Origin: Candidatus Thorarchaeota archaeon
GTDB lineage: Archaea; Asgardarchaeota; Thorarchaeia; Thorarchaeales; Thorarchaeaceae
Assembly: GCA_003345545.1 (NCBI GenBank)
Contig: PRDH01000038.1
Coordinates: 1-36,222, forward strand
Direction of reading: 5' to 3'
Length of the DNA: 36,222 nt
This document shows, piece by piece, positions 5,729 through 35,723 of this stretch. Under the pieces are notes generated by a model that searched no databases, was not told the origin of the DNA, and saw nothing but the letters and a program-made list of their open reading frames with translations. The translations under genes were made by a program, and so were the position numbers. Numbering within the stretch: the stretch's first letter is position 1; each line of letters starts with the position of its first letter.

Positions 5729-5837
5729 TGGTGGGCCGGCCCGGATTTGAACCGGGGAACCTTCGCCGTGTGAAGGCGACGTATGTTAGAAGGTCAAGAA
5801 GTCTGACCCAATCATAACCGGGCTAGACCACCGGCCC
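5729..5837 (-). tRNA. tRNA-Val(CAC) with a non-canonical intron of about 30 nt
   Basis: Reading down from 5837: acceptor GGGCCGG, a D-arm beginning GTCTAGCCCGGTTA, then extra sequence, then the anticodon arm TCGCC-TTCACAC-GGCGA (anticodon CAC, 5763-5779). The T-arm is CCCGG-TTCAAAT-CCGGG and the 3' acceptor strand is CCGGCCC-A with CCA encoded (5729-5731). About 30 bases (5781-5810) between the D-arm and the anticodon stem do not fit a tRNA. They contain a 5-bp hairpin, GGTCA/TGACC. Removing them leaves a normal 76-base tRNA plus CCA. The position, near nucleotide 25/26, is not the usual 37/38 site. Confidence 0.85.
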
Positions 5838-5913
5838 ATACACTGCGTTCTGGAGCCTGATAGTTATAAGAATGACGCTGTGAGGTGGCTCTGCTGATTT
5901 GAGCAAGGAGGTA

Positions 5914-5936
5914 TGCAAGTCGGCCCCGGCCCACCA
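5914..5936 (+). repeat. tRNA 3'-end-like fragment 1 (Val-type acceptor + CCA)
   Basis: This reads TGCAAGT-CGGCC-CCGGCCC-A-CCA, in the order T-loop, T-stem 3' strand, acceptor 3' strand, discriminator, CCA. With the next three bases it matches the tRNA-Val 3' end and its flank at 21 of 26 positions. It is on the opposite strand to the tRNA-Val gene. No matching 5' half (GGGCCGG) or T-stem 5' strand precedes it, so it is a fragment and not a gene. Confidence 0.5.
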
Positions 5937-6057
5937 TTCCTCCATAATCGCGTTGTCTTCCCCTCTCCGCAGTTGACAGATTGGAAGGACATCATAATTC
6001 CTATCGTTACAGTTATAACCCAAGCAAAAGACCTCCGAATTAGCTGCACCGGATTGT

Positions 6058-6080
6058 TTCGAATCTCGTCCGGCCCACCA
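6058..6080 (+). repeat. tRNA 3'-end-like fragment 2 (Val-type acceptor + CCA)
   Basis: This reads TTCGAAT-CTCGT-CCGGCCC-A-CCA: an exact T-loop consensus, T-stem 3' strand, acceptor strand, discriminator A and CCA. The bases before it (GATTGT) cannot pair with CTCGT, and no tRNA body is present. It ends 25 bases before the eL38 start codon. Like fragment 1 it lies opposite in strand to the tRNA-Val gene. Confidence 0.5.
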
Positions 6081-6105
6081 CCAAACAGCACAATGGGGCG
6101 TTGCA

Positions 6106-20392: not shown

Positions 20393-23059
20393 ATGTCCAT
20401 GCACATAGAGGAGGAAAATGACCCGCTATCTCGACTCCGAGGACAATTGAAGGCGCTCAGTAATAGGCATGCAATTGAGATTCTTCAGGTGTTGAGTCCT
20501 CAGACTGGAGAGATGGTACCCACACTTGGATGGGACTCGATTGTGGAAGGTCTCTTAGCCCTTGATGGAATCAGTAGACCTAAGTCAAATCCAAGAGGAG
20601 AGAAATCCCAGGAAGAGGTAGAGTATGAACTCGCACGCCGGGGGCTAATCTCTGGCGGAACAGTCTATGAGACCATGAACAAACTTGTGAGGGTCGGTTT
20701 TGTAGTGACCTCTGGCGACAGGGGTCGAAAACAGAGAGGGTTCATGATAACTCATGACGGAAGGCTTGCACTGGCATCTGTCGGACGACTTGAAGAGCCG
20801 ATAGGAACAGGGACAGAGGTCCAGAGAGCTGCAAGAATACTTCTGAAACACAAGAACTTCGTTGCCCTTCTTCCAGCACAGGAGAAATTCCTCCGCGAGA
20901 TTGGCGACATCAATGACAACCTCGTGATCCAGATGCCTCCTGGCTCAGGAAAGACATTTCTCGCAATGATTGTGATTCTCCTGCGGTTGCAGAGAGGTGT
21001 TAGGTGTCTCTATCTCAGCCCCTATACGTCACTCAGCAGGCAAATCATGGATGAATACGGAGCCCTGTTAGAAGAGCTTGGATATGCTGTCGTCCGATAT
21101 GATGGGCTATCGCCTGTCACCGACAGCGAACTGGAAGAGACCAATCTTATTGTTGCAATGTATGAAACCTTTGCCTCTGCGGCACTTCAGAAGAAGAAGT
21201 GGACATCGAAGTTGGGTCTTGCTGTCGTCGATGAATTGACAGAACTTGATTCCTCACAGCCTGAGATGCAGTCCCAAGACCTTGGTACCGATAGAAGTGT
21301 AAAACTAGACTGTATCATCACCCTGCTAAAAGGCCAGATGCAGATTCTGACACTCTCCTCGAGATTCGGTGAGACTGAGAAGATCACAGAATGGCTCAAC
21401 GCAACGGCATTTCGACCTGACTTTAGATTGACCCCCGACGAATTCATTGTGAGCAAGAGCGGTCAGGGAATCAAGATTGTGAGCAGTGATGGAACTCAGA
21501 GAAGTACATCTCAGCAGGAAGACGTGCTTGACGCAGTCATGGAGCATATAGAGGACTACAAGAAGAAGTCGATACTCTTCGTTGTCGGATCGAGATACAG
21601 AGCCCAAGGAATCGCCAGAAGGCTCGCAAGAAGTCACCCAAGAGAGATAGGCTCAGAGATAGTGAATCAGATAATAGGGACAGGGGAGAGCCTCCCTCTG
21701 AGTAGCAGACTGTCAAACACGTTGAGATACGGAGTCGCATTTCATCATTCAGGTCTAGATGCAGGTGTACGAGAGCGACTTGAGAATGCAATCAGAAGTA
21801 GAGTCGTAAGAACGGTCGTTTCGACAACTGGCATCACATCAGGAATGAGTTTCCCGTTTGACTGTGTTGTCATCTTGCTTGATTCCAACATGTATTTCCT
21901 TTCCGCCAGGTCGCGCTATCTACAGATTGCCGGGAGAATTGGTGAGTACCATCTCAGACAACATGGGGGCAGAGTGTATCTCGTCTTTGAGGGGCCCACA
22001 CAGGAGTTCCCAACTCCAGAAGCAATGGAAGAGATCCTCCTTCATAGGCCCCTTGAGGCTCTTAAGCCAGGTGTGATGTACCCGAGCCTAGCAGTCAGTG
22101 TGTTAGTCAGGACGCTCATCAACGGACGCCCAGCAATTCTGGAAGATGTCCGGAGGATGTTCGTGGAGTTTGTCAGAGGATCGTTCAGAGGAACAATTGA
22201 TCAAGACTACAGCTCGAGGATGGACAGGTTCTTTGATGCCTTAGTCCAATGGCTGATTGATGAAGGGGTGCTTGAGAGCGGCAAGAGCGGCCTCGTCTTG
22301 ACCAAGGAGGCTCGCGATGCAGTACTCTCAGGAATAGATCCTGTTGATTACATGCAGAGAAGAGAGGATTTCTCCGAAGTCAAGGCAGACACCGCAGTTA
22401 GCGATCTTGTTGACTTGCTGTTGAGGTTTCGACTGCCGCAGTCGGTCAGACCGAGAACTCTGGCACCGTCACAGACAGAGATTGAGATGATGGGACTAAG
22501 GACCCCTGAAGACTGGTACATGAAACTGATACCTACACGGCTGAGAATCAAGAAATCAGTGCTCACTAGATGGTTAGATGAACAGAACATTGCCTCGATA
22601 ATCAATGAAACTGGAGAGATGGTCAAGGGTATCAGTCTCGATGAAGGAGACCTGGATTCGCTCCTTGGTATCTGCAGCAGTGTAGCAGAGAGTCTGAACA
22701 GGTTTTACCTGACTCAGAAGAAGAGAAGCATTGCTGAACGATTCCGTATCTTGGGCAGGCAGTTGCAGTACGGTGTTCGGCCGGACTTGGCAAACTCGGA
22801 CTTGCTTGAACTCCTTCTCATCCAGAGTGACAACTCGCCATCAAGCAGACTGTCACGAAACGCTGCACGAGTCCTGTACGAACATGGATACAAGTCAATC
22901 TCAGATGTTGTGAGGAAGGACATTGATGCAAGTCTGAAGGGATTAGCAAGGGATAGATTCTCCAGGAACTGTGGTCTGGAGCCGGAGCGGGCAAAAGAGG
23001 TCTACAAAGCTGCCATGATGCATATTCGCTCGAAGATCATCGGAGATGATGATGAGTGA
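20393..23059 (+). CDS. SF2 (Ski2/Hel308-like) helicase with wHTH and altered motifs
   Basis: 888 residues. Residues 12-140 look like a winged helix-turn-helix (LKALSNRHAIEILQVL, then a wing near GDRGRKQRG). The SF2 core follows: motif I MPPGSGKT (about 181-188), motif II VVDELT (D280, E281) where DExH is usual, motif III LTLSSR in place of SAT, motif V TTGITSGMSFP, and motif VI QIAGRIGE (511-518) where QxxGRxGR is usual. The C-terminal part is helical with a Hel308-like helix-hairpin-helix near the end. Walker A and the DE pair remain, so ATP binding is likely. The last motif VI arginine is replaced by Glu. Function is uncertain. Confidence 0.8.
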   Translation: MSMHIEEENDPLSRLRGQLKALSNRHAIEILQVLSPQTGEMVPTLGWDSIVEGLLALDGISRPKSNPRGEKSQEEVEYELARRGLISGGTVYETMNKLVRVGFVVTSGDRGRKQRGFMITHDGRLALASVGRLEEPIGTGTEVQRAARILLKHKNFVALLPAQEKFLREIGDINDNLVIQMPPGSGKTFLAMIVILLRLQRGVRCLYLSPYTSLSRQIMDEYGALLEELGYAVVRYDGLSPVTDSELEETNLIVAMYETFASAALQKKKWTSKLGLAVVDELTELDSSQPEMQSQDLGTDRSVKLDCIITLLKGQMQILTLSSRFGETEKITEWLNATAFRPDFRLTPDEFIVSKSGQGIKIVSSDGTQRSTSQQEDVLDAVMEHIEDYKKKSILFVVGSRYRAQGIARRLARSHPREIGSEIVNQIIGTGESLPLSSRLSNTLRYGVAFHHSGLDAGVRERLENAIRSRVVRTVVSTTGITSGMSFPFDCVVILLDSNMYFLSARSRYLQIAGRIGEYHLRQHGGRVYLVFEGPTQEFPTPEAMEEILLHRPLEALKPGVMYPSLAVSVLVRTLINGRPAILEDVRRMFVEFVRGSFRGTIDQDYSSRMDRFFDALVQWLIDEGVLESGKSGLVLTKEARDAVLSGIDPVDYMQRREDFSEVKADTAVSDLVDLLLRFRLPQSVRPRTLAPSQTEIEMMGLRTPEDWYMKLIPTRLRIKKSVLTRWLDEQNIASIINETGEMVKGISLDEGDLDSLLGICSSVAESLNRFYLTQKKRSIAERFRILGRQLQYGVRPDLANSDLLELLLIQSDNSPSSRLSRNAARVLYEHGYKSISDVVRKDIDASLKGLARDRFSRNCGLEPERAKEVYKAAMMHIRSKIIGDDDE

Positions 23060-25156: not shown

Positions 25157-26098
25157 CTATATCTTTATGATGCTATTCGGAATTCTGGGGAACAGCGTAA
25201 TCTCACAGATGTTTGAACGTTTTGTCAGAAATCGAATCAGTCGTTCAATTCCAAGCCCGCCTCCAGCACTTGGCCCCAGCATTCCAGCTCTGGCGAGTTC
25301 AAGATACGGAGCAAAATCATCCAGTTTCTGTCCGCGTTCTCGTATCTTTCTGACTAGAACATAATACTCGTAATCGCGTTCCCCGCCTGAGAGTGCTTCC
25401 TGATATCCTTCTGGGTAAACTAGGTCATAGTTGACATAGTGTCCGTGATGTTCCGGGTCTTCTCTGTCGTAAAACTCTCTCTGAAAGTCAGTAATCCAGA
25501 ACAAGTCATCTTCGGAACGTGATATCTCTGATTCGTAATGAGGGCCGTATTCTTCCAATAATGACCAGCTGGTGTGAGTGCGAAATGGTCTTCGTGGAAT
25601 CCTGAGAGTAGCATTCAGTTTCTCGAGTTCATCAGCACATGTTGCCTTGACCTGGGATATGATATAGATCATTAGATCCTCGATGAGTGTCATGAACTCG
25701 CTTGCTGTCGCGGTCTTAAGCTCAATATCAAGCTGGGAGAACTCTAGGAGATGTCTGTCGCTACTTTGAACTCGCTCTAATCGAACATTAGGTGAAACAA
25801 TGTATATACCTCTAGTATCAAGAGCTGACACAGCAATCTGCTTGTGAAGGATCATGCTCTTTGTGAGCTGTAGCTTTTGCCCGTTATACGTGATATATGC
25901 GTCGTCAACTGAATGATTGAGAGGATCTGTGATGGGAGAGAGAATGACGGGCATCAACTGAATGAGTCCTCTGCCACTCAGAAAGTCATGCATGGCTCTC
26001 AGTGCCTCAGTCTGTACTCTGAATATCTGAGAATAACTCCCGTTTCCGTTTTGAGGATGCGTTGTTGTTTTCATTAAAGGCTCAGTCGTCATAGTCAT
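25157..26098 (-). CDS. Archaeal asparagine synthetase (AsnRS-like)
   Basis: 313 residues from the ATG at 26098; GTG 26101 and ATG 26092 are alternatives. It is the catalytic core of a class II aminoacyl-tRNA synthetase without an anticodon-binding domain. Motif 2 is seen around IYIVSPNVRLERVQSSDRHLLEFSQLD. Motif 3 is GGGLGIERLIRFL. This matches the archaeal asparagine synthetase derived from AspRS/AsnRS, which makes asparagine from aspartate, ammonia and ATP. It is divergent from an AsnC/Lrp-type regulator, which fits that role. The first 15 residues are not conserved. Confidence 0.85.
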   Translation of the reverse strand: MTMTTEPLMKTTTHPQNGNGSYSQIFRVQTEALRAMHDFLSGRGLIQLMPVILSPITDPLNHSVDDAYITYNGQKLQLTKSMILHKQIAVSALDTRGIYIVSPNVRLERVQSSDRHLLEFSQLDIELKTATASEFMTLIEDLMIYIISQVKATCADELEKLNATLRIPRRPFRTHTSWSLLEEYGPHYESEISRSEDDLFWITDFQREFYDREDPEHHGHYVNYDLVYPEGYQEALSGGERDYEYYVLVRKIRERGQKLDDFAPYLELARAGMLGPSAGGGLGIERLIRFLTKRSNICEITLFPRIPNSIIKI

Positions 26099-26162
26099 CA
26101 CAGGTTAGGCTACTCTATAGAAACACAGACAATGAACTTCTCTACATAAGAATTTGCAGAGA

Positions 26163-26222
26163 AAAATGGAATGATTGTCAAGAAGGACAGGTTTAAGTCT
26201 GAAAGATGGAATAATTTTCCAT
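26163..26222. promoter_or_regulatory. Lrp/AsnC-type operator pair and TATA box
   Basis: ATGGAATGATT (26166-26176) and ATGGAATAATT (26206-26216) are 40 bases apart, about four DNA turns, and differ at one position. The second extends to a perfect inverted repeat, ATGGAA-N5-TTCCAT, at 26206-26222, which ends 1 base before the Lrp ATG. A TATA-like GGTTTAAGTC lies at 26190-26199, so the palindrome covers the likely transcription start. This fits autorepression by the Lrp protein, with the far copy reaching toward the divergent synthetase promoter. Confidence 0.6.
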
Positions 26223-26223
26223 T

Positions 26224-26673
26224 ATGATCCAGCTTGATGATAAGGATTACAGGATACTGGCCCTCTTACGAGAGAATGCCAGACTTACGACAGGTGAGAT
26301 GGCGAAAGAACTCGGTATCGCTCAGACTACAATTCACAATCGCATAAAGAGGATGAGAGAGAGCGGAATCATCAAACGCTTCACTGTGGATTTGGATAGA
26401 AAGAAGATTGGCAGAGGCCTTGTAGCATATATTCTGTGCACTGTTTCATATCACACTTCTCGCGGGCAGAAGATCGACCAGTATGAAGTAGCTCGACTAG
26501 TCAAAACATTGCCTGAGGTAGAGGAAGTCTCGATAGTGACCGGAGAGAATGACATTATTGTCAAGGTAGCGCTGAGAGATGTGGATGAACTGAACGATTT
26601 CATTATTTACAAACTACGAAATACGGAAGGCATAGAAAAAACCAGGACAAGTGTTGTACTATCAGAGGTGTAG
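26224..26673 (+). CDS. Lrp/AsnC-family transcriptional regulator
   Basis: 149 residues. The N-terminal HTH is DDKDYRILALLRENARLTTGEMAKELGIAQTTIHNRIKRM; the C-terminal RAM/AsnC ligand-binding domain runs from about 60 to 149 (VAYILCTVSYH, then VARLVKTLPEVEEVSIVTGENDIIVKV). Such proteins form dimers and octamers and sense amino acids. It is divergent from the asparagine synthetase gene. The bacterial asnC-asnA pair has the same arrangement with an unrelated synthetase, so regulation by asparagine is a good guess. The ATG follows the palindrome by 1 base, so the mRNA is probably leaderless. Confidence 0.92.
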   Translation: MIQLDDKDYRILALLRENARLTTGEMAKELGIAQTTIHNRIKRMRESGIIKRFTVDLDRKKIGRGLVAYILCTVSYHTSRGQKIDQYEVARLVKTLPEVEEVSIVTGENDIIVKVALRDVDELNDFIIYKLRNTEGIEKTRTSVVLSEV

Positions 26674-26910
26674 AGGTTTCTTGGAGACCAGTCTCGGAAT
26701 CATTCACTTGATTCTCAATCTCCTAGATAGTGGAACTGTGCTCATCCGTCCCTAGCGTGCTGAGTACCCTTTGATGACTAGAGAGAGAAGTTGCGGACAG
26801 GTCGAGATTTCTCAAGGATGAGCTGATGGACATGCAATAACCCAGCTGACTTATATCCATCTAGCTAATCATCTGATTTCAAATAGACCTGCAACGTGGT
26901 TTCCGTGTCG

Positions 26911-27372
26911 ATGGAAGACAAGATTCAGATGAATCCAGTTGGGTTTGTGCAACGTGAGAAACCTGATGAGGATGTCAAAGATAGGAGAATCATATCGAGA
27001 GTGGTTCTTGATGCCAAGTTCTCTGAGGGCCTGTCGGGAGTCGATGAGTTCTCACATATCTATATCATATTTTGGTTGAATAAGGTCAAGCAAGCCGATA
27101 TCGGCACGCTAGAGCGCCATGTCTTTGACGATCCAAAACTGCCGCTCGTTGGTATCTTTGCCACAAGGTCGCCCACTCGACCAAACCCCATAGGTCAGAC
27201 CTTGGTCGAGCTAGTCAGACGGGAGGATAATGTACTCTGGGTCCGGGGTCTTGATGCCTATGATGGCACACCCGTCTTGGATATCAAACCATATCCAGAT
27301 TGGGAGCGAGGACAATGGATAGTTGTCAAGGATTTTAGAGCTCCAGATTGGTTGAGGAGTATCAACAAGTAG
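26911..27372 (+). CDS. TrmO/TsaA-like tRNA methyltransferase
   Basis: 153 residues from the ATG at 26911; a GTG at 26896 adds five residues. The beta-barrel TrmO fold is recognised by IQMNPVGFVQ, DEFSHIYIIFW, and the signature FATRSPTRPNPIGQTLVELV, followed by LDAYDGTPVLDIKPY. TrmO methylates N6 of t6A37 in tRNA-Thr using SAM. A TATA-like CTTATATCC lies about 55 bases upstream. It stands alone here. Confidence 0.9.
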   Translation: MEDKIQMNPVGFVQREKPDEDVKDRRIISRVVLDAKFSEGLSGVDEFSHIYIIFWLNKVKQADIGTLERHVFDDPKLPLVGIFATRSPTRPNPIGQTLVELVRREDNVLWVRGLDAYDGTPVLDIKPYPDWERGQWIVVKDFRAPDWLRSINK

Positions 27373-27548
27373 TGCCATCTGATATGACAGACTCTAATCG
27401 CAAATCAAGCAGTCGCCAAACGGAGTGAAGTCTATTAGGGTCTTCAATGTGAAGTGCCCTTCAGCAAAATTCAATTGCCAATGGTAGAAATCGCTAAGGG
27501 TACTCTCAAGCATGTTGCCTTCGTTTATTGACAAGAAAAGAGAGGATC

Positions 27549-29960
27549 ATGAGTTCCATGAAGACAAAGGCTTTTGCTGATATGACTGTCGAACAGGCAT
27601 GTTCCCAGGTGGGTTCAGATTTAACTGGACTCTCACAGTCAGAGGCGGAGTCGCGGCTTCAGAAGTATGGGTACAATGAGATATCAGAGGACAGGAGAAG
27701 CCCCCTGATTGATCTGCTTTCTCGGTACTGGGGACCGATGCCATGGTTGCTCGAACTGACAATAATCCTCTCATTATTGCTGAACCATTTAATTGACGCT
27801 ATCGTAGTCTTTGTTCTCTTGACAATCAACGTTGTAGTGGGCTTCATCAACTCCGATCACTCACAGAAGGCGTTGGAGCTTCTGAAGAGCAAGCTCGCTA
27901 CTAAGGCCAGGGTGAAGCGAAATGGTTCATGGACTAGAGTCGACGCTCGTCAACTCGTCCTTGGTGATGTCATATACTTGAATCTGGGAGATGTTGTTCC
28001 TGCAGATGCCAAGGTGACTAAGGGAGAACTGCTTGTTGACCAGAGCTCTCTAACGGGCGAGTCGCTACCAGTTCATCTTCATGACTCAGATGTTATCTTC
28101 TCAGGGACTGTGGTGACTCAGGGGGAAGGAATGGGACTTGTTGTCAATACAGGAGAGGCTACGTATTTTGGCGCAACTGCAGGTCTCGTCAAGCTCGCCA
28201 AGCCCCAATCGCATCAGATGGATATCGTGATAGGCGTATCAAGGTACTTGCTTTACGCGAGTCTATCTGTATTGGCTGTAACTGCGCTGTATGTATGGCT
28301 TACTAGCGGCGACATGGTTCTGATTGTCACATTTGCAGTTCTCTTTCTCATGGGCTCTATTCCAGTCGCATTACCAGCAGTCACTGCTATTGTTGAGGCG
28401 AGAGGCGCAATGGAATTATCTCGAGAAGGGATTCTTGTGTCTAGGTTGGACTCCATAGAAGATGCTGCATCTATCGATGTCCTCTGTTTCGACAAGACAG
28501 GAACGCTTACTCAGAATCGCATCTCCGTAGTGGATGTCCTCCCTCAGCGTGGTCATGATACATTTGAGGTGGGGATGCTCGCGGCACTGGCATCAAGCGA
28601 GAACAGCAAGGACCTGATTGATTCTGCAATCATAGATTACGCCAAGACCAGGGCGATCGACTATTTCAGTTTCAAGCAGACAGTATTCACGCCATTCACA
28701 CCAAATACAAAGATTGCCGAGGCTATCGTTGAAAGGGGCGACTCACGTTTGAGAGTCATCAAGGGCGCTCCTAGAGAAGTCCTGTCCCGATGCAAGGACG
28801 ATCCGGATAAAGTACAAGGCGTGGAAGACCAGATTTCTCAGATAGCTACTCTGGGTTATAGGACATTGGCTGTTGCACGGTCTATTACGCATGAAAACTC
28901 AAACCTAAGCTACTGCGGGCTGATAGTCATGTCTGATCCGATACGACCAGAATCGAAGGAGATGATTGAACGAATCAGGTCTCTCGGAGTCAGACCATTA
29001 ATGCTCACCGGAGATAGTCTCAGCATCGCCAAGGAGGTGGCCATTCAGACTGGAATCGGTGAGAAGATTGGACTAGCATCAATGCTCAGAAAGGAAAGCC
29101 ACAATCTTCGCTTCGAAATCCTGGACTATGATGGATTTGCTGAAGTGTATCCTGAAGATAAGTATCTAATTGTGAAATCGCTCCAGTCTCAGGGCCACAT
29201 GCTTGGTATGACAGGCGACGGTGTTAACGATGCTCCCGCTCTGAAACAGGCCGAGATGGGCATTGCAGTGAAAGATGCTACTGATGTGTCAAAGGCTTCA
29301 GCAAGCGTTGTCCTCACTAGGGATGGCATCGATGTGATCACACAGGCTCTGATCACAAGCAGAAAGATATACCAACGAATGCTCAGCTGGGTCATCAACA
29401 AGATTGCCAAAGTGATCCAGTTCGTAGGACTGCTCTCATTGGGTTACTTCTGGCTTCACGGACTCGTTTTCCCAGTGATTGGAATGGTTCTACTAATCTT
29501 CTCAAATGATTTCGCCACCATGTCTCTTGCCACAGATAATGCTGCGGGGTCGACCAGTCCCAATCAATGGAACCTGAAGAATATCAGCATCCTAGGCGGC
29601 GTAGTTGGCCTTCTCTTGGTTGCCCAGGGTGCTCTCACAGTATATATTGGCATGACCGTGTTCGAGATGGATTTGAACCAGGTTGGAAGCCTTATTACAT
29701 TCACATTAATCTTCACGAGCCAGTTCAGGATATTGGTCGTTCGAGAGAGGCGGCGATTCTGGGCCTCTCGCCCCGGAAGAGAACTAATGCTCTCTGTAGT
29801 GGGAGTGCTCTTCAGTTTCTCAGTTCTGGCGTTCATTGGTGGTCTCTTGGCTCCTTTGACACTCGTCGAGATTGTTTTTGCAGTGCTATTCTCGGGAGCT
29901 TTCACTTTCATAGTTGTAGATCCTGTCAAGTTCTCTCTCGCAAAACGCTTCGGTCTGTAG
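27549..29960 (+). CDS. P-type H+-ATPase (plasma-membrane type)
   Basis: 803 residues from the ATG at 27549, with GAGAGGA upstream. The cation-ATPase N-terminal domain (MTVEQACSQV) precedes two membrane segments. The actuator loop has LTGES; M4 has the IPVALP proton/cation motif; the phosphorylation site is DKTGTLT (D about 315). KGAPREVL, MLTGDS, and TGDGVNDAPALKQAEMG complete the ATP-binding and hinge motifs. The C-terminal membrane part includes FSNDFATMSLATDN, typical of the PMA (P3A) group. It should pump protons out of the cell using ATP. No C-terminal regulatory tail of the fungal type is present. Confidence 0.93.
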   Translation: MSSMKTKAFADMTVEQACSQVGSDLTGLSQSEAESRLQKYGYNEISEDRRSPLIDLLSRYWGPMPWLLELTIILSLLLNHLIDAIVVFVLLTINVVVGFINSDHSQKALELLKSKLATKARVKRNGSWTRVDARQLVLGDVIYLNLGDVVPADAKVTKGELLVDQSSLTGESLPVHLHDSDVIFSGTVVTQGEGMGLVVNTGEATYFGATAGLVKLAKPQSHQMDIVIGVSRYLLYASLSVLAVTALYVWLTSGDMVLIVTFAVLFLMGSIPVALPAVTAIVEARGAMELSREGILVSRLDSIEDAASIDVLCFDKTGTLTQNRISVVDVLPQRGHDTFEVGMLAALASSENSKDLIDSAIIDYAKTRAIDYFSFKQTVFTPFTPNTKIAEAIVERGDSRLRVIKGAPREVLSRCKDDPDKVQGVEDQISQIATLGYRTLAVARSITHENSNLSYCGLIVMSDPIRPESKEMIERIRSLGVRPLMLTGDSLSIAKEVAIQTGIGEKIGLASMLRKESHNLRFEILDYDGFAEVYPEDKYLIVKSLQSQGHMLGMTGDGVNDAPALKQAEMGIAVKDATDVSKASASVVLTRDGIDVITQALITSRKIYQRMLSWVINKIAKVIQFVGLLSLGYFWLHGLVFPVIGMVLLIFSNDFATMSLATDNAAGSTSPNQWNLKNISILGGVVGLLLVAQGALTVYIGMTVFEMDLNQVGSLITFTLIFTSQFRILVVRERRRFWASRPGRELMLSVVGVLFSFSVLAFIGGLLAPLTLVEIVFAVLFSGAFTFIVVDPVKFSLAKRFGL

Positions 29961-30142
29961 AGTGAAACGAAGCTACACTGGTATGGGGAATCCTATGGCA
30001 TCATCATTTGGGCAGCCCACATACGACATTTTCAAAAGAGCCAAGGCAGGCCAACCGAGATTTGAGCTCAGGACCGCCTCCTCTTTGTTCATCTGGAATC
30101 TGACATCTAGAGATAAAAGAGGAATTATCATGGATAATCGTA

Positions 30143-30832
30143 ATGTCTTCACGCGACTCATCCAGTTTTCATGATAAGAGAGGTGGAAAGTTCATCTATG
30201 TCAGTAGCTGTCTTCTCAATCAGAATCGCCGATTTCCAGGTATCGCAGTCAGTGAAGGTGCAATACCGGGTCTTTTTGAGGAAATCATGAGAAACGGAAT
30301 TGGTATTGAACAGCTTCCATGTCCAGAATGTCTCGGATGGGGAGGAATATCTCGTGACTCTGTCTTTAGATTCATTCCTATCTTTTATCGATATAGTGGT
30401 TCAAGATTGTACCCTCTGATTAAGGCCATGGGAAGAGTATGGTTGTACAAGTACAGAAGGCTGTGCAAGAGGAGAGCACATGAGATTGTCAGAGATATCA
30501 AGAGTGCCCGGTCAAGCGGGTATCGTATTCTCTCCATAATCGCTATGAATGACAGTCCTACATGTGGCGCGACCCGGAAATTGAGCATTCTGGATATGGT
30601 TGCCAATCTCAAAGAGAGAGGTCTGCGAGTCAAGGATATCGAGTGTCCGCAGTTTGACATGATGAGAAAGCACTTGCCGAATCTGCTGGTGGCAGGACAG
30701 GGGCATTTCATGAGTGAACTGATCAATGGGCTTAAGCAGAATGGCATAGTAATACCAGTCTTGGCGTACGACCCTTGGAGTGACCCTCAGAAAGAAACGG
30801 ATAGACTAACTGAAGCACTTCTGGAATTGTGA
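30143..30832 (+). CDS. TudS/DUF523-like Fe-S protein
   Basis: 229 residues. The family motifs are SSCLLNQNRRFPG, then PCPECLGWGG, and NDSPTCGATR. Their cysteines match the three that hold the [4Fe-4S] cluster in TudS/DUF523 desulfidases (thiouracil desulfurase relatives). An insertion rich in Arg, Lys and Tyr (about 75-110) is longer than in standard DUF523, closer to a divergent TudS-related branch. The C-terminal part (VIPVLAYDPWSDPQ) is not standard. A desulfurase role is only suggested. The tRNA-like repeat at 30838 begins 5 bases after its stop. Confidence 0.75.
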   Translation: MSSRDSSSFHDKRGGKFIYVSSCLLNQNRRFPGIAVSEGAIPGLFEEIMRNGIGIEQLPCPECLGWGGISRDSVFRFIPIFYRYSGSRLYPLIKAMGRVWLYKYRRLCKRRAHEIVRDIKSARSSGYRILSIIAMNDSPTCGATRKLSILDMVANLKERGLRVKDIECPQFDMMRKHLPNLLVAGQGHFMSELINGLKQNGIVIPVLAYDPWSDPQKETDRLTEALLEL

Positions 30833-30837
30833 AGAGT

Positions 30838-30867
30838 GAAGGAGTGGTGGACCGGGCGTGATTTGGC
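30838..30867 (-). repeat. tRNA-Ala 3'-end direct repeat, copy 1
   Basis: On the minus strand: T-loop GCCAAAT, T-stem CACGC, acceptor CCGGTCC, A, CCA, then CTCCTTC. The acceptor, discriminator and CCA match the real tRNA-Ala 3' end at 33423-33433 exactly. Copies 1 and 2 are identical over 28 bases (30838-30865 and 32230-32257), including the flank beyond CCA. No tRNA body is attached. The copy marks the left end of a 1.39 kb segment holding the OYE gene. Confidence 0.75.
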
Positions 30868-30932
30868 ATATGAGCTCTCTTGGCCCTCATCTGAGTTTGA
30901 TTTCAATAGTCATGCTTGTTAGAATATCCTAG

Positions 30933-30946
30933 TTCCCTGAAGGGAA
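30933..30946 (-). terminator. Stem-loop downstream of the OYE gene
   Basis: TTCCCT-GA-AGGGAA is a perfect 6-bp inverted repeat about 26 bases beyond the OYE stop codon. A terminator or mRNA end is plausible but archaeal termination does not require a hairpin. Confidence 0.3.
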
Positions 30947-30971
30947 TCTTGTTCTCCGCTAGCTCGGAATA

Positions 30972-32099
30972 TCACTCTCCCTCAAACTGAACGCATTCTA
31001 CCTTTCCTCTAAGCCCTGCTACAAGGCAACGGTTACAAGAAATGCATCGAGCTGGTTCCTGTTTACTGATCTTCGCTTCTTCAGTCCAACGCTGCAAAAG
31101 CGCGGGTTCACTAATCAACGGGCGACTAAGCTGAATCACATCGAAAGCAGCCTTTGGATTTCCGTTCCCTGTCAGTAGCTCAACAACAGTTTCCGGCGAC
31201 CGGATTCCACCTACCAATCCGAACAAGAGACCACTGTCATGAGCTATCGAACGGATAATCGTTGCGTCATCCAAGAAATAAGCCTCACCTACATCCTTCG
31301 GATTCTGACTTGGGTTGGGCCCACTGAATATGACGCAATATGCTCCCGCTTCAGCGAGCCTCTTCGTCAACTCACCTACTTCCTCAGGTCCGACCATTTT
31401 CGAGCTTGAGTCCACCTTCACCTGAATGGGAATATCAACCGCATTCTTCACAGCTCTCACAGCATCCACCATCGCCTTACAACGTCCTTCGATTGTTGCT
31501 CCGGTATATGGGTCATCCACTGGGCGTCTATTGAACGATGGGTCAAAGAATTGCCAAAGCCCATAGTTGTGAGCTCCATGTAGTTCAATCACATCAAATC
31601 CGGCTTTAACTGCACGTTTGGCTGCGTCAGCATACGCCTGAGTGACTCTCTCTACATGGTCCACTGTCATAGCCTTGACTCGAACAACATCCCCCCTAGG
31701 TTGAGGGACCTCCATATCACTGGGTCCAAATGCTATATCGTTGCCAGTGTATTTTGGCAAGCTCCTGCTCCCGCAATGAACCAATTGAGCTGCTGCCAGA
31801 CCACCTGAAGCATGAATCGCCCCAGCAAGGCGTTTCAGGCCTTCAACATCGCTTGCCTTTGAATTAGAGATCATGCGCTTAATCGTCTGTCCTTCATACA
31901 TTACATATTGAAAACCGGTTACCACGACGCCTGCTCTGATCTTGCCATAAGTTTCGATGATGGCCTCCCCGCATATTCCATTCTCTTCCGCCTGACTCAT
32001 CCAGGTAGCGGCCCGCATGATTCGGCTTGATGCAATCATGCCATTTGGCAATTCGAGTTTCTGGAACACAACACGCTCCCAAGTTTCTTGGTCTACCAT
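30972..32099 (-). CDS. Old-yellow-enzyme family NADH:flavin oxidoreductase with Cys cluster
   Basis: 375 residues. The (beta/alpha)8 barrel has LVHCGSRS, ELHGAHNYGLWQFFDPSFNRR, the substrate and flavin region typical of this family, then IPIQVKVDSS, GGIRSPETV and FDVIQLSRPLISEP for phosphate binding. The C-terminus has CISCNRC-x10-C, a likely Fe-S site as in 2-enoate and dienoyl-CoA reductases. The FAD/NAD domains that follow in those enzymes are absent; the protein ends just after the cluster. It lies between tRNA-Ala 3'-end repeats with no other gene. Substrate unknown; ene-reductase chemistry is inferred. Confidence 0.88.
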   Translation of the reverse strand: MVDQETWERVVFQKLELPNGMIASSRIMRAATWMSQAEENGICGEAIIETYGKIRAGVVVTGFQYVMYEGQTIKRMISNSKASDVEGLKRLAGAIHASGGLAAAQLVHCGSRSLPKYTGNDIAFGPSDMEVPQPRGDVVRVKAMTVDHVERVTQAYADAAKRAVKAGFDVIELHGAHNYGLWQFFDPSFNRRPVDDPYTGATIEGRCKAMVDAVRAVKNAVDIPIQVKVDSSSKMVGPEEVGELTKRLAEAGAYCVIFSGPNPSQNPKDVGEAYFLDDATIIRSIAHDSGLLFGLVGGIRSPETVVELLTGNGNPKAAFDVIQLSRPLISEPALLQRWTEEAKISKQEPARCISCNRCLVAGLRGKVECVQFEGE

Positions 32100-32229
32100 C
32101 GAATCAGCTCACATTTTCTAATCCCTCGTGCTCGAAACACAGACTTTTCCACTTTCTTTCATTCGAGTATGAAGGAGCTTCTGATAGAATGATATTCGAT
32201 TAGCATATAGGCTTGGTGTGATGACACGA

Positions 32230-32259
32230 GAAGGAGTGGTGGACCGGGCGTGATTTGAC
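32230..32259 (-). repeat. tRNA-Ala 3'-end direct repeat, copy 2
   Basis: On the minus strand: T-loop GTCAAAT, T-stem CACGC, acceptor CCGGTCC, A, CCA, then CTCCTTC. It is identical to copy 1 over 28 bases and differs from the real tRNA-Ala in the T-stem (CACGC against TTCGC). It stands between the OYE gene and the NosD-like gene, dividing the region into two single-gene segments. Confidence 0.75.
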
Positions 32260-32372
32260 CCTGTTGTCTTATTCGTGCCCAACGCCTCTTGCAGATTAGA
32301 GTGCAGGCGGGAGATAGATCGAGTTTGATTCTTTTCCGTACATCCAAGAGTAACTATCTAATAATCATGGAA

Positions 32373-33350
32373 TCATTTATGCACTACTCGAAATCCAACC
32401 ACCAGCAGAACTACGACGATGGCTGATAGTGATCCTATCAAGATGATTGCCAACACGACATCGCCGTTATTCTGAGATGATTGGCTATGATTAGGATACG
32501 GATCAGTATTGTCTGCAGGTCCATCAATTGCATATGATCCCAATCCGGAGTAGTCGCTCCACCAGTTGCCAGTATTGGTATTCATGTCGTACCAGTGATT
32601 ATTATCGCCCTCATCATATCCTTGACTGGTCAGGGTGCCAGTTCGCTCATTATCAATAACGTATTCGTCAACATTCCCATTATCGATGAAAGTGTTGTCG
32701 TAGGCTACGTTGTTACTTGAAGTCCCTACAAATACAAGCCCATGTTGAGTGCTATTGGTTATTCGATTGCTGGTAATGATGTTATTATTAGAATAGCGAA
32801 TGTTGATTCCCTGATAGGTGGAATCTGAGATGTTGTTTCCTGAGATTAGACACTGAGATGCTTCATTGAGATGGATGCCCTGAGCCCAGTTCTCACATCT
32901 ATTCTCTAAAACTGTTAAGTTGTCAGTTCCAATGACAATTCCCCCGCCACCTCCCGAACTGGAGATACATGTGTTATTGATTATGGATCCTGTTCCAACA
33001 GCAATGTCAGCTACAAGAATTCCGATATACCTTGACATTATGTGGCAATCACGAATGATGAAGTATGCACTAGTATCTCTAATCGAAATTGCGTTACCAC
33101 GGAGGATACTCGACGTGACATTCAATTGTTCAAGAATGAAGGGATTTCCCTTACTTCCATTTCCAGCAAAACCACCGTCTATGAAGTCTTGATCAGATTC
33201 AATACTGATCGGTTCGTGTAGAATATAGTACTCCGAACTCGGTGTGGAGAGAGCGACAGCTATGGTTGAGGAATTCATTTCGACAGGGATTTGTAAACCC
33301 CAGAAGCAGAGAATCCCAACTAGAAGATAACTGGCCCATCGCAAGTTCAT
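32373..33350 (-). CDS. Secreted NosD-like parallel beta-helix protein, membrane-anchored
   Basis: 325 residues. A signal-like N-terminus (MNLRWASYLLVGILCFWGL) is followed by an extracellular domain with Asn/Ser/Ile-rich parallel beta-helix rungs (about 80-220; for example LENRCENWAQGIHLNEASQC, then LISGNNISDSTYQGINIRYS and NNIITSNRITNSTQHGL). These match NosD/CASH repeats that bind carbohydrate. A C-terminal membrane helix (about 298-320) ends with a short basic tail. NNHWYD and NTGNWWSDYSG are typical of archaeal surface versions. GAGAGG precedes the ATG. The region looks AT-richer than its neighbours. It lies in a tRNA-repeat-bounded segment. Confidence 0.85.
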   Translation of the reverse strand: MNLRWASYLLVGILCFWGLQIPVEMNSSTIAVALSTPSSEYYILHEPISIESDQDFIDGGFAGNGSKGNPFILEQLNVTSSILRGNAISIRDTSAYFIIRDCHIMSRYIGILVADIAVGTGSIINNTCISSSGGGGGIVIGTDNLTVLENRCENWAQGIHLNEASQCLISGNNISDSTYQGINIRYSNNNIITSNRITNSTQHGLVFVGTSSNNVAYDNTFIDNGNVDEYVIDNERTGTLTSQGYDEGDNNHWYDMNTNTGNWWSDYSGLGSYAIDGPADNTDPYPNHSQSSQNNGDVVLAIILIGSLSAIVVVLLVVGFRVVHK

Positions 33351-33380
33351 GGTTCCTCTCCCAAAGGGTCGAATGATTCT

Positions 33381-33395
33381 ATTATTTATTTAAGG
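33381..33395 (-). promoter_or_regulatory. AT-rich promoter of the NosD-like gene
   Basis: On the minus strand CCTTAAATAAATAAT lies 31-45 bases before the ATG at 33350, a clear TATA-like element. It sits between the gene and the 3' end of tRNA-Ala. Confidence 0.5.
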
Positions 33396-33422
33396 TATGA
33401 TTTACGCAATGGTTCCAAGAAG

Positions 33423-33562
33423 TGGTGGACCGGGCGAAATTTGAACTCGCGCCCCGTGAAAACTAGATTCACAGAGTTTCGCGACCTCTTCCATGCCAAG
33501 GAAGCGATCTTTGCCGGCCGCTGCGACAGTTCGCAGCGACTACCGGGCTAATCTACCGGCCC
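33423..33562 (-). tRNA. tRNA-Ala(GGC) with two non-canonical introns
   Basis: Reading down from 33562: acceptor GGGCCGG, TA, GATT, AGCCCGGTA, extra sequence 1 (33510-33540, 31 bases), GATC, the anticodon arm CTTCC-TTGGCAT-GGAAG (anticodon GGC), AGGTC, extra sequence 2 (33451-33482, 32 bases), T-arm GCGAG-TTCAAAT-TTCGC, CCGGTCC, A and CCA. Extra sequence 1 has a perfect 8-bp hairpin (CGCTGCGA/TCGCAGCG); extra sequence 2 has a 5-bp one (GTGAA/TTCAC). Removing both leaves a 74-base tRNA in which every stem pairs. One intron falls in the D-loop, the other before or in the T-stem (its ends can slide 3 bases). Confidence 0.85.
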
Positions 33563-34349: not shown

Positions 34350-35123
34350 ATGTCAAGCAAGGAAGAAGACGGGGACATCTCGAAGGTTCTTTTTGAGCTT
34401 GCCAGCAACCGAAGAGCGAGCATTCTTTTTGAAGTGCAAAAGCAGAGTCTCAAGATGCAGCAAATAGCAAAATCTCTTGAAATGAATGTCACCGAAACTT
34501 TCAGGCACTTACAAAGACTTTGTGATGCGAAACTTGTAGAGAAGAGAATTGACAGTACCTATGCAGTGACCTCTCTGGGCAGCCTCGCGATTGGCCATCT
34601 CTCAAGTTTGAATTTCATTTTGAAAAACGGGAATTATTTCCTAGAACATGATCTTTCTTGTCTGCCTTATGAGTTTGTCAATAGGCTTGGTGAGTTATCA
34701 AATGGAGAGTTTTGTGGTGACACTGTAACTCATTTTAATCGAGTCAGAAACATGGTATATGAAGCAGAGGAGTACATCTGGGCTATGTCTGAGCAAGTTG
34801 AATCGAGTCATATTCAAGCAACAAACGAGAAAGTATCTAGAGGGCTCAAATTCAGATTCATTATGCAACAGGACCTTGCTAAAACAGTCAAAATTGCTCC
34901 AGAAGTCGAGCACTTGAAAGAAAGAAAGTATCTCGAACGAATCTGTGTCACGTTCTTGATCAATGAAAAAGAATCAGTTGTTAATCTTCGCAGACGTAAC
35001 GGAGAAATGGATTACATTGGCTTTTTTGGAAAAGATGAGACATTCCACAAATGGACCCGAGACCTCTTCATGTATTACTGGGAAAGAGCTGAACGATGGT
35101 ATCCAAGCATCCAGAAACCATAG
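34350..35123 (+). CDS. Winged-helix regulator, FilR1/DUF1724-like
   Basis: 257 residues. The N-terminal winged helix (about 10-75) is of ArsR type: LFELASNRRASILFEVQKQSLKMQQIAKSLEMNVTETFRHLQRLCDAKLVEKR. The C-terminal domain (about 125-250; RVRNMVYEAEEYIWAMSEQ, then GLKFRFIMQQDLAK and IGFFGKDETFHKWTRDLFMYYWERA) matches the archaeal FilR1/DUF1724 type, first known from a methanogen regulator. It probably senses a small molecule or cell state. It is divergent from the small-protein operon, with inverted repeats between. The methyltransferase follows in the same direction. Confidence 0.88.
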   Translation: MSSKEEDGDISKVLFELASNRRASILFEVQKQSLKMQQIAKSLEMNVTETFRHLQRLCDAKLVEKRIDSTYAVTSLGSLAIGHLSSLNFILKNGNYFLEHDLSCLPYEFVNRLGELSNGEFCGDTVTHFNRVRNMVYEAEEYIWAMSEQVESSHIQATNEKVSRGLKFRFIMQQDLAKTVKIAPEVEHLKERKYLERICVTFLINEKESVVNLRRRNGEMDYIGFFGKDETFHKWTRDLFMYYWERAERWYPSIQKP

Positions 35124-35150: not shown

Positions 35151-35723
35151 ATGGAAGATTGTCCTAGCATCGCATCATCACCTGTCCAAACGATACACTT
35201 AGACGAGTTACCGAAAGACGGGCGCATCCTTGACATAGGCGGCGGCGGTGAGGGCTTGGTATCCCGGATTGGTGGGAGGCGCGTCTGTGCCGTTGACTAC
35301 AGAATGAGTGAGATTCTTGAGGCCAAGATACATGATCCGCCTGCGAACTGGTTCGTTGCAGATGCCAGGAGTCTGCCCTTTCGAAACCGTTCTTTTGACA
35401 TGGTGACACTATGGTTCTCTCTGGAGTACGTGGCTGACCGGCATACCAAAGAACGCATCCTGGCGCAGTCATTTTCAGTCCTCAAGACAGGCGGCGATTT
35501 GTCCATCTATGCCGGCCGAATTGACTGCAGGGAGGACTGCTTCATATTCAATGCTCTGTTCATCCTGCCTGATGGAGCAGTCTCAAAGGTCGGATATGGA
35601 GTGCGGGGGAATCAAGGACAGACGATAGATCGCGTGTGCCCACTACTGAGGAGGGTGGGCTATGATGACCTTCAGATTGAAGACAACGATTGGTGGTTCA
35701 AGATTCACGCACACAAGGCGTAG
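35151..35723 (+). CDS. SAM-dependent methyltransferase
   Basis: 190 residues, short class I methyltransferase. Motif I is ILDIGGGGEGLVSRIG (about 26-41), then AVDYRMSEI for the acidic strand, VADARSLPFRNRSFDMVTLWFSLEYV for motifs II-III, and LKTGGDLSIYAGRI for the later strand, the layout of the UbiE/Methyltransf_11 group. The C-terminus (YDDLQIEDNDWWFKIHAHK) completes the fold. Its ATG is 27 bases after the regulator stop, so it is probably in the same transcript. Substrate unknown. Confidence 0.82.
   Translation: MEDCPSIASSPVQTIHLDELPKDGRILDIGGGGEGLVSRIGGRRVCAVDYRMSEILEAKIHDPPANWFVADARSLPFRNRSFDMVTLWFSLEYVADRHTKERILAQSFSVLKTGGDLSIYAGRIDCREDCFIFNALFILPDGAVSKVGYGVRGNQGQTIDRVCPLLRRVGYDDLQIEDNDWWFKIHAHKA

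Follow-up and report, generated by a model that had tools for sequence, protein, structure and literature searches.

Copies of the tRNA-Ala 3' end divide Thorarchaeota DNA into mostly single-gene cassettes that are likely moved by site-specific recombination

We analysed a stretch of 36,222 nucleotides (the window) from a Candidatus Thorarchaeota archaeon, contig PRDH01000038.1 of assembly GCA_003345545.1. This contig is one of 82 in a 2.69 Mb genome (G000) with a completeness of 93%. The subject here is a set of short repeats next to a tRNA-Ala(GGC) gene, which resemble the attachment (att) sites of integrating elements and split the adjoining DNA into segments (Table 1). The two copies closest to the tRNA, at 30838-30865 and 32230-32257, agree at all 28 bases, and the tRNA's own end (33416-33443) shows 86% identity to both; all three lie on the minus strand, in the direction of the tRNA. 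A search of the window with a 30-base motif comprising the core and its tail found a third, worn copy on the same strand, while the reversed or complemented window gave zero matches with up to 9 mismatches. Across 24 array loci totalling 293 kb, the 23-base core with up to 5 mismatches was found at 114 sites (tRNA genes counted) and its reversed control at 0; a chance origin of the copies is excluded.

A first-pass annotation, made from the letters of the window, had reported the first two copies as identical over 28 bases and on the tRNA's strand, and both alignment and motif search bear this out. It had also derived them from the 3' end of tRNA-Ala(GGC). They do represent a tRNA-Ala end, but they match tRNA-Ala(TGC), located on a different contig of G000, at 21/21 bases, whereas the neighbouring tRNA-Ala(GGC) differs at 2 of those 21. 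Their T-stem letters also agree with those of the intron-less tRNA-Ala(GGC) in a relative, G003. Compared to intron-less orthologues, the window's tRNA-Ala(GGC) carries two insertions of 31 and 32 nt. ARAGORN missed this gene in the window, and Rfam scans of the window and of its 29.9-34.0 kb part returned no matches. Because ARAGORN misses intron-bearing tRNAs, we additionally recognised tRNAs by a simple acceptor-and-T-arm pattern. One of the two insertions lies directly before the T-arm, where introns could affect an att-like site.

Table 1. Features of the tRNA-Ala(GGC) locus in the window
Feature	Positions	Strand	Remarks
tRNA-Ala(GGC) with two insertions (introns), array anchor; 3' end 33415-33445 is the resident site copy	33423..33562	-	folded, orthologue comparison
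att-like copy 1, T-loop to CCA plus pyrimidine tail	32229..32259	-	0/30 mismatches to consensus
att-like copy 2	30837..30867	-	2/30 mismatches to consensus
Worn att-like copy 3, between AsnC-type regulator and TrmO	26783..26812	-	8/30 mismatches
NosD/beta-helix cassette, open reading frame (ORF) 32373-33350; related ORF between two copies in G047	32260..33422	-	
Old-yellow-enzyme-type (OYE) cassette, ORF 30972-32099; homologous units in seven other genomes	30868..32236	-	
Segment between copies 2 and 3: TrmO, P-type ATPase and DUF523-like ORFs	26813..30836	+	
Two-gene unit: class II tRNA-synthetase-like (minus), AsnC-type regulator (plus); relatives between copies in G007 and G017	25157..26673		
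Helicase gene, conserved flank of the tRNA-Ala(GGC) locus	20393..23059	+	
Methyltransferase gene, conserved opposite flank of the tRNA-Ala(GGC) locus	35151..35723	+	

The repeat is widespread in the window's family. An exact tRNA-Ala 3'-end pattern matched in 45/47 family genomes, and by hand count 19 of the 47 (hereafter array-bearing), including 12/16 in the window's genus, contain clusters of at least two same-strand matches on the same contig with neighbours no more than 15 kb apart, where the tRNA itself may be one match. The largest family cluster has six matches by the exact pattern. A control pattern had 0 matches in the family scan and at most one per genome in related scans. Outside the family, 65 of 148 sampled phylum genomes had matches; in G113, a member of another family and the only such genome examined further, contig C110 (L186/L187) carries five same-strand tRNA-Ala 3' copies across 24 kb, and ARAGORN detected no tRNA in this array.

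The repeat is sharply bounded. From 93 sites we removed 17 as full tRNAs, and the profile of the remaining 76, which include a few tRNA-Phe or tRNA-Val-type sites, starts abruptly at T55 of the T-loop and extends through CCA and about nine pyrimidines, with near-random sequence on either side. By a simple pattern, a further 18 of the 93 resemble longer tRNA pieces. T-stem letters match the host tRNA in some copies (part of those in G003 and G006) and differ in others.

The polarity of the copies relative to the tRNA is fixed. We counted them at 41 chosen loci with one recognisable full tRNA-Ala each, picked partly for having clusters, of which 20 have copies. Among these 61 copies, 53 are on the 3' side and the same strand as the tRNA, 8 are on the 5' side and the opposite strand, and the other two classes are empty. 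A less filtered count over 59 loci, 15 of them without exactly one recognisable tRNA-Ala, gave 66 on the 3' side and same strand, 2 on the 3' side and opposite strand, 1 on the 5' side and same strand, and 13 on the 5' side and opposite strand. The stricter acceptor filter removes tRNA-Phe genes and the sole 5'-side same-strand match (L076, 5 mismatches); the 41-locus count further omits L151, L077, the duplicate L063 and two pieces beside a tRNA-Val in the window, and sites with a tRNA-like 5' end and more than one core mismatch were placed in neither class. The first-pass annotation had named random dispersal of the fragments as an outcome that would speak against integration; instead, the copies are clustered and uniformly oriented. 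At three loci (L125, L126 and L152, in G013, G008 and G005) the tRNA-Ala(GGC) has outward-pointing copies on its 5' side and the opposite strand, the layout expected if the tRNA segment had flipped between two inverted copies.

The tRNA-Ala(GGC) locus occurs in empty and filled versions. Its flanks are conserved, with relatives of the helicase in 40/47 genomes and of the methyltransferase in 40/47. G019, G039, G040 and G045 represent the empty version, their methyltransferase match beginning 88-142 bp past the tRNA (the helicase of G019 is on a separate contig). In 12 other genomes this distance is 1.2-34 kb: 1.2 kb in G024, 2.9 in G023, 3.5 in G020, 3.6 in G022, 5.5 in G008, 5.6 in G013, 5.8 in G017, 6.1 in G005, 6.9 in G049, 13 in G003, 18 in G018 and 34 in G058. 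Copies are recognisable between the tRNA and the methyltransferase in G003, G017, G018 and G058. Relative to its flanks, the tRNA is inverted in the window and in the genomes G001, G016 and G054, as well as, by its 3'-end match only, in G042. In the first three, 5-11 kb separate the helicase from the tRNA, once more in the tRNA's 3' direction; for G042 and G054 this distance is about 1.3-1.4 kb, no more than in uninverted genomes. Cassette-free relatives had been predicted to join the tRNA directly to the sequence at 30.83 kb. Such relatives exist, but this junction was not found: in the empty genomes the tRNA is followed by the methyltransferase relative, and it is the window's tRNA that is inverted between the conserved flanks. 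Relatives that always carry both genes and all three copies would, according to the first-pass annotation, have spoken against integration; not all relatives carry both the OYE and NosD genes.

The units between copies are short and varied. Neighbouring same-strand copies have a median spacing of 1071 bp, and of 88 intervals 57 contain exactly one ORF of 80 aa or more, 3 contain none and 28 contain two or more. The earlier proposal that tRNA 3'-end att-like sites bracket single-gene segments in the window is supported. A Pfam scan of 30 array ORFs found FMN reductase, aldehyde ferredoxin oxidoreductase, luciferase-like monooxygenase, APH-type phosphotransferase, a DNA methylase piece, AMP-binding enzyme, amidohydrolase, NosD, LVIVD, acetyltransferase, TIR, PLD and CAAX-protease-like families, and no match for 10 of the 30.

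Repeat-bounded units recur in different surroundings. Clustering of ORFs across the fetched loci gave 50 families in at least two genomes, flanking genes counted. The OYE family is present in 8 genomes including the window's, and a clear copy lies at one or both ends in 8/8 (against a background of 10-15 mismatches; the eighth locus is truncated). An upstream copy on the same strand with at most 6/31 mismatches, 59-132 bp away, was found in 7/8 loci, the remaining one having a worn copy, and a downstream copy with 3-8 mismatches, 22-105 bp away, in 4 of the 7 loci whose sequence extends to this point. The immediate neighbours differ in each of seven OYE loci. The named genomes with this cassette are Candidatus Thorarchaeota in 7/7 loci. 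Similarly, the neighbours of F1, a 145-aa family present at nine loci, vary, and related ORFs of family F33 were found beside tRNA-Ala(TGC) in G010 and in the array of G047, which belongs to another genus. Blocks of homology between arrays of different genomes tend to end at the repeat: 85 of 215 block ends, which are not independent of each other, lie within 40 bp of a copy, while in 300 shifted controls this number averaged 25.6 and peaked at 48.

We think it likely that the copies divide the DNA 3' of Thorarchaeota tRNA-Ala into mostly one-gene cassettes that are inserted, excised and reshuffled by site-specific recombination at the repeat. These would be integron-like cassette arrays that recombine at the tRNA-Ala 3' end, with a recombinase that likely acts in trans. 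A cassette may move as a circle carrying one repeat, with a crossover inside the T-loop; the tRNA would then be rebuilt intact and its old end displaced outward to become the next copy, and each cassette would bring or leave one repeat. The shared T-loop 5' edge, the whole tRNA and the outward polarity fit integration by a recombinase directed at tRNA 3' ends. The enzyme is probably a tyrosine recombinase of this kind, and it might be supplied by visiting elements or be too diverged for recognition. A review of archaeal tyrosine recombinases describes both tandem integration at a single locus and inversions between opposed sites (PMC8371274).

The searches pointed to no enzyme of this kind. 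In the window's genome, 93% complete, PF00589, PF00239 and Cas1 had no match. The integrase family PF00589 was found in 18/47 family genomes and 8/19 array-bearing ones, PF00239 serine recombinases in 14/47 and 5/19, and Cas1 in 11/47 and 1/19; 9/19 array-bearing genomes had none of the three. Cas1 occurs in 1/16 genomes of the array-rich genus g1 compared to 10/31 other family genomes. These absences are provisional because the genomes are incomplete. Neither the two cassette ORFs of the window nor the 30 array ORFs scanned, out of a larger set, include an integrase, in agreement with the earlier statement that none is nearby. A family-specific integrase profile (19 rows, E up to 0.01) matched in 44/47 genomes. 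It had four matches in the window's genome, of which the three listed weak ones (E 4e-4 to 4e-3) cover model positions 278-326 only; in G010, which has an array and no PF00589 match, it matched an N-terminal fragment of an integrase at the edge of a contig (E 8e-11). F1 was considered as a recombinase and rejected, since alignment by eye indicates a small membrane protein; wherever the name of a listed F1 homologue states the organism, it is Thorarchaeota.

Several observations weigh against recombination at the repeat as we propose it. PF00589 is absent from 11/19 array-bearing genomes, the window's included, with the incompleteness just mentioned. Of 36 integrase matches, 30 loci were fetched, and none has the repeat within about 1.5 kb (up to 4 mismatches); the exact repeat had 0 matches in viral contigs. 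A symmetric core site would have a 5' T-stem arm, and only 15/58 short copies retain it (offset controls 0-3/58). In 8/12 filled loci no copy is recognisable between the tRNA and the methyltransferase; therefore, wear or other insertions must be assumed there. The single ORFs are of mixed orientation, 34 in the direction of the copies and 23 against it (n=57). Lastly, one more gene family, F14, is common to the OYE loci L111 and L112, lying beyond the immediate neighbours and on the same side in both, and some shared cassettes may be old and vertically inherited.

The alternative that survives best, although we regard it as unlikely, is that each repeat marks a separate, larger insertion of an ordinary integrative element (virus or plasmid) at tRNA-Ala that has since been eroded to a single gene. 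Integrating elements classically target tRNA 3' ends, and in archaea partial copies are known to persist as remnants (PMC9897764); worn copies, the filled loci that lack copies and the integrases of 18 family genomes would all be accounted for. The att direct repeats, one of which completes the tRNA, are those of a tRNA-integrating element, but an integrase of its own inside the unit is lacking, as the scanned ORFs indicate. In addition, repeat-bounded units of similar length recur, at 8 loci for OYE and 9 for F1, which independent decay would not yield. The first-pass annotation had suggested decayed cassettes or cassettes mobilised in trans. The data favour the second option and not mainly decay, as copy-bounded units recur across genomes, though worn copies exist.

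It is quite unlikely, in our judgement, that general repair or homologous machinery recombines the 22-31 bp repeats without any dedicated recombinase. The nine array-bearing genomes with no match to the three recombinase families and the near-identical repeats within some arrays point that way; however, such machinery leaves both the common T-loop 5' edge of new copies and their strict polarity unexplained.

We consider a Cas1-type, casposase-like insertion that duplicates the tRNA end very improbable. A casposase recognises TCAAATC, 8 bp before a 14-bp target duplication at a tRNA gene, and the conserved core of the repeat opens with the comparable TCRAATC (PMC6614799). Yet the copy contains the recognition part, which a target duplication would not, and Cas1 occurs in a single array-bearing genome. 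The ends of 64 cassettes showed no excess of terminal inverted repeats over shuffled pairs; transposition with inverted ends is therefore unsupported, and neither casposon hallmark, terminal inverted repeats or cas1, was found. It is equally hard to credit that the copies serve as RNA signals at gene ends, acting in tRNA-like 3' processing or in termination, with gene order altered by ordinary rearrangement: they are mostly intergenic and their pyrimidine tail resembles an archaeal terminator, but ORFs face both ways relative to them, the core, judged by its letters, lacks the 5' acceptor strand that a tRNA-like fold needs, and the clusters are anchored at tRNA-Ala wherever the contig includes the tRNA.

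Recombination at the tRNA-Ala end, which we favour, has known counterparts in bacteria. Additive islands with recurring 20-nt tRNA ends (PMC10872708) and a tRNA accepting cassettes (PMC4119200) have been described; in Methylopumilus fGI-2 and Alteromonas fGI1, as here, the tRNA is the cassette target, its last 20 nt are repeated and the length varies between strains (PMC10872708, PMC4119200). The Thorarchaeota locus has the constant location, conserved flanks, variable content (0.1-34 kb) and recurring tRNA 3'-end repeats of such islands. Unlike them, its units are mostly one gene of about 1 kb, lie at tRNA-Ala in Asgard archaea, are shuffled between genomes and genera and keep their polarity at 20 loci, and many array genomes have no recognised recombinase. 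Tandem tRNA-end islands of bacteria are already known; the one-gene, shuffled, archaeal form is new. Tycheposons, reportedly 4-200 kb with a tyrosine recombinase, differ from these units of about 1 kb without one, and the combination of tyrosine recombinase and large cargo at a tRNA was not found here. What the two share is a tRNA at the border and cargo genes (PMC10872708). Aloposons and an integrated Heimdallarchaeum virus are likewise Asgard elements at tRNA genes, but aloposons are large with giant genes and the virus has an integrase; the word 'cassette' is not present in that text (PMC8813620).

Integrons, with attC sites, are present in Asgard archaea, and neither 'tRNA' nor 'Thorarchaeota' occurs in the main text of that report (PMC9668308). 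Integrons, archaeal integrons and clusters of attC sites lacking integrases (CALINs) resemble our arrays in their tandem short-ORF cassettes, recombination sites between them, varied cargo and an integrase that is often not nearby (PMC9668308). The arrays have tandem single-ORF cassettes that recur in new order. In contrast to integrons, their site is a tRNA 3' end by sequence, a tRNA gene serves as their platform, their ORFs face both ways rather than in one general orientation, and no intI was found: PF00589 is absent from the incomplete genome G000, and no intI-specific model was run. Among the matches listed from openly licensed literature, nothing concerned tRNA-end cassette arrays in Thorarchaeota.

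More tentatively, these arrays may be an archaeal counterpart of the integron, in which an essential tRNA gene is the platform and its 3' end the cassette site. A shared pool of one-gene cassettes would circulate among Thorarchaeota genera by means of an as yet unrecognised recombinase, and exchange between inverted copies would flip the tRNA, so that cassettes build up on either side.

Eukaryotes have their closest known relatives in the Asgard archaea, whose genomes combine genes from many sources. To our knowledge, the route by which single genes enter these genomes is largely unknown. Thorarchaeota likely gain, lose and shuffle genes beside tRNA-Ala as bacteria do with integrons. A defined, countable site of one-gene traffic would offer a direct handle on Asgard gene flow, and the repeat is both a simple motif for mining any Asgard genome and a concrete target for recombinase discovery.

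The window itself is best read as a short, partly worn array, in which the NosD and OYE cassettes are followed by older segments that extend to position 26.8 kb or beyond. The segment between copies 2 and 3 has no relative among the array loci; its DUF523-like ORF resembles 2-thiouracil desulfurase, below the cut-off. On the 5' side of the tRNA, a helix-turn-helix regulator gene (34350-35123) has a G006 relative with a copy on each side (L067 7220-8683).

Similar sites may exist at other tRNAs, because a tRNA that we read by hand as tRNA-Val(CAC), with an insertion (window 5729-5840, minus strand), is accompanied by two tRNA 3'-end-like pieces at 5915-5944 and 6059-6088, on the opposite strand and beyond its 5' side. 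At L059:924-1562 (G009:C124), a single 115-aa ORF separates a tRNA-Phe(GAA) from a 3'-end-like copy that lies after it on the same strand.

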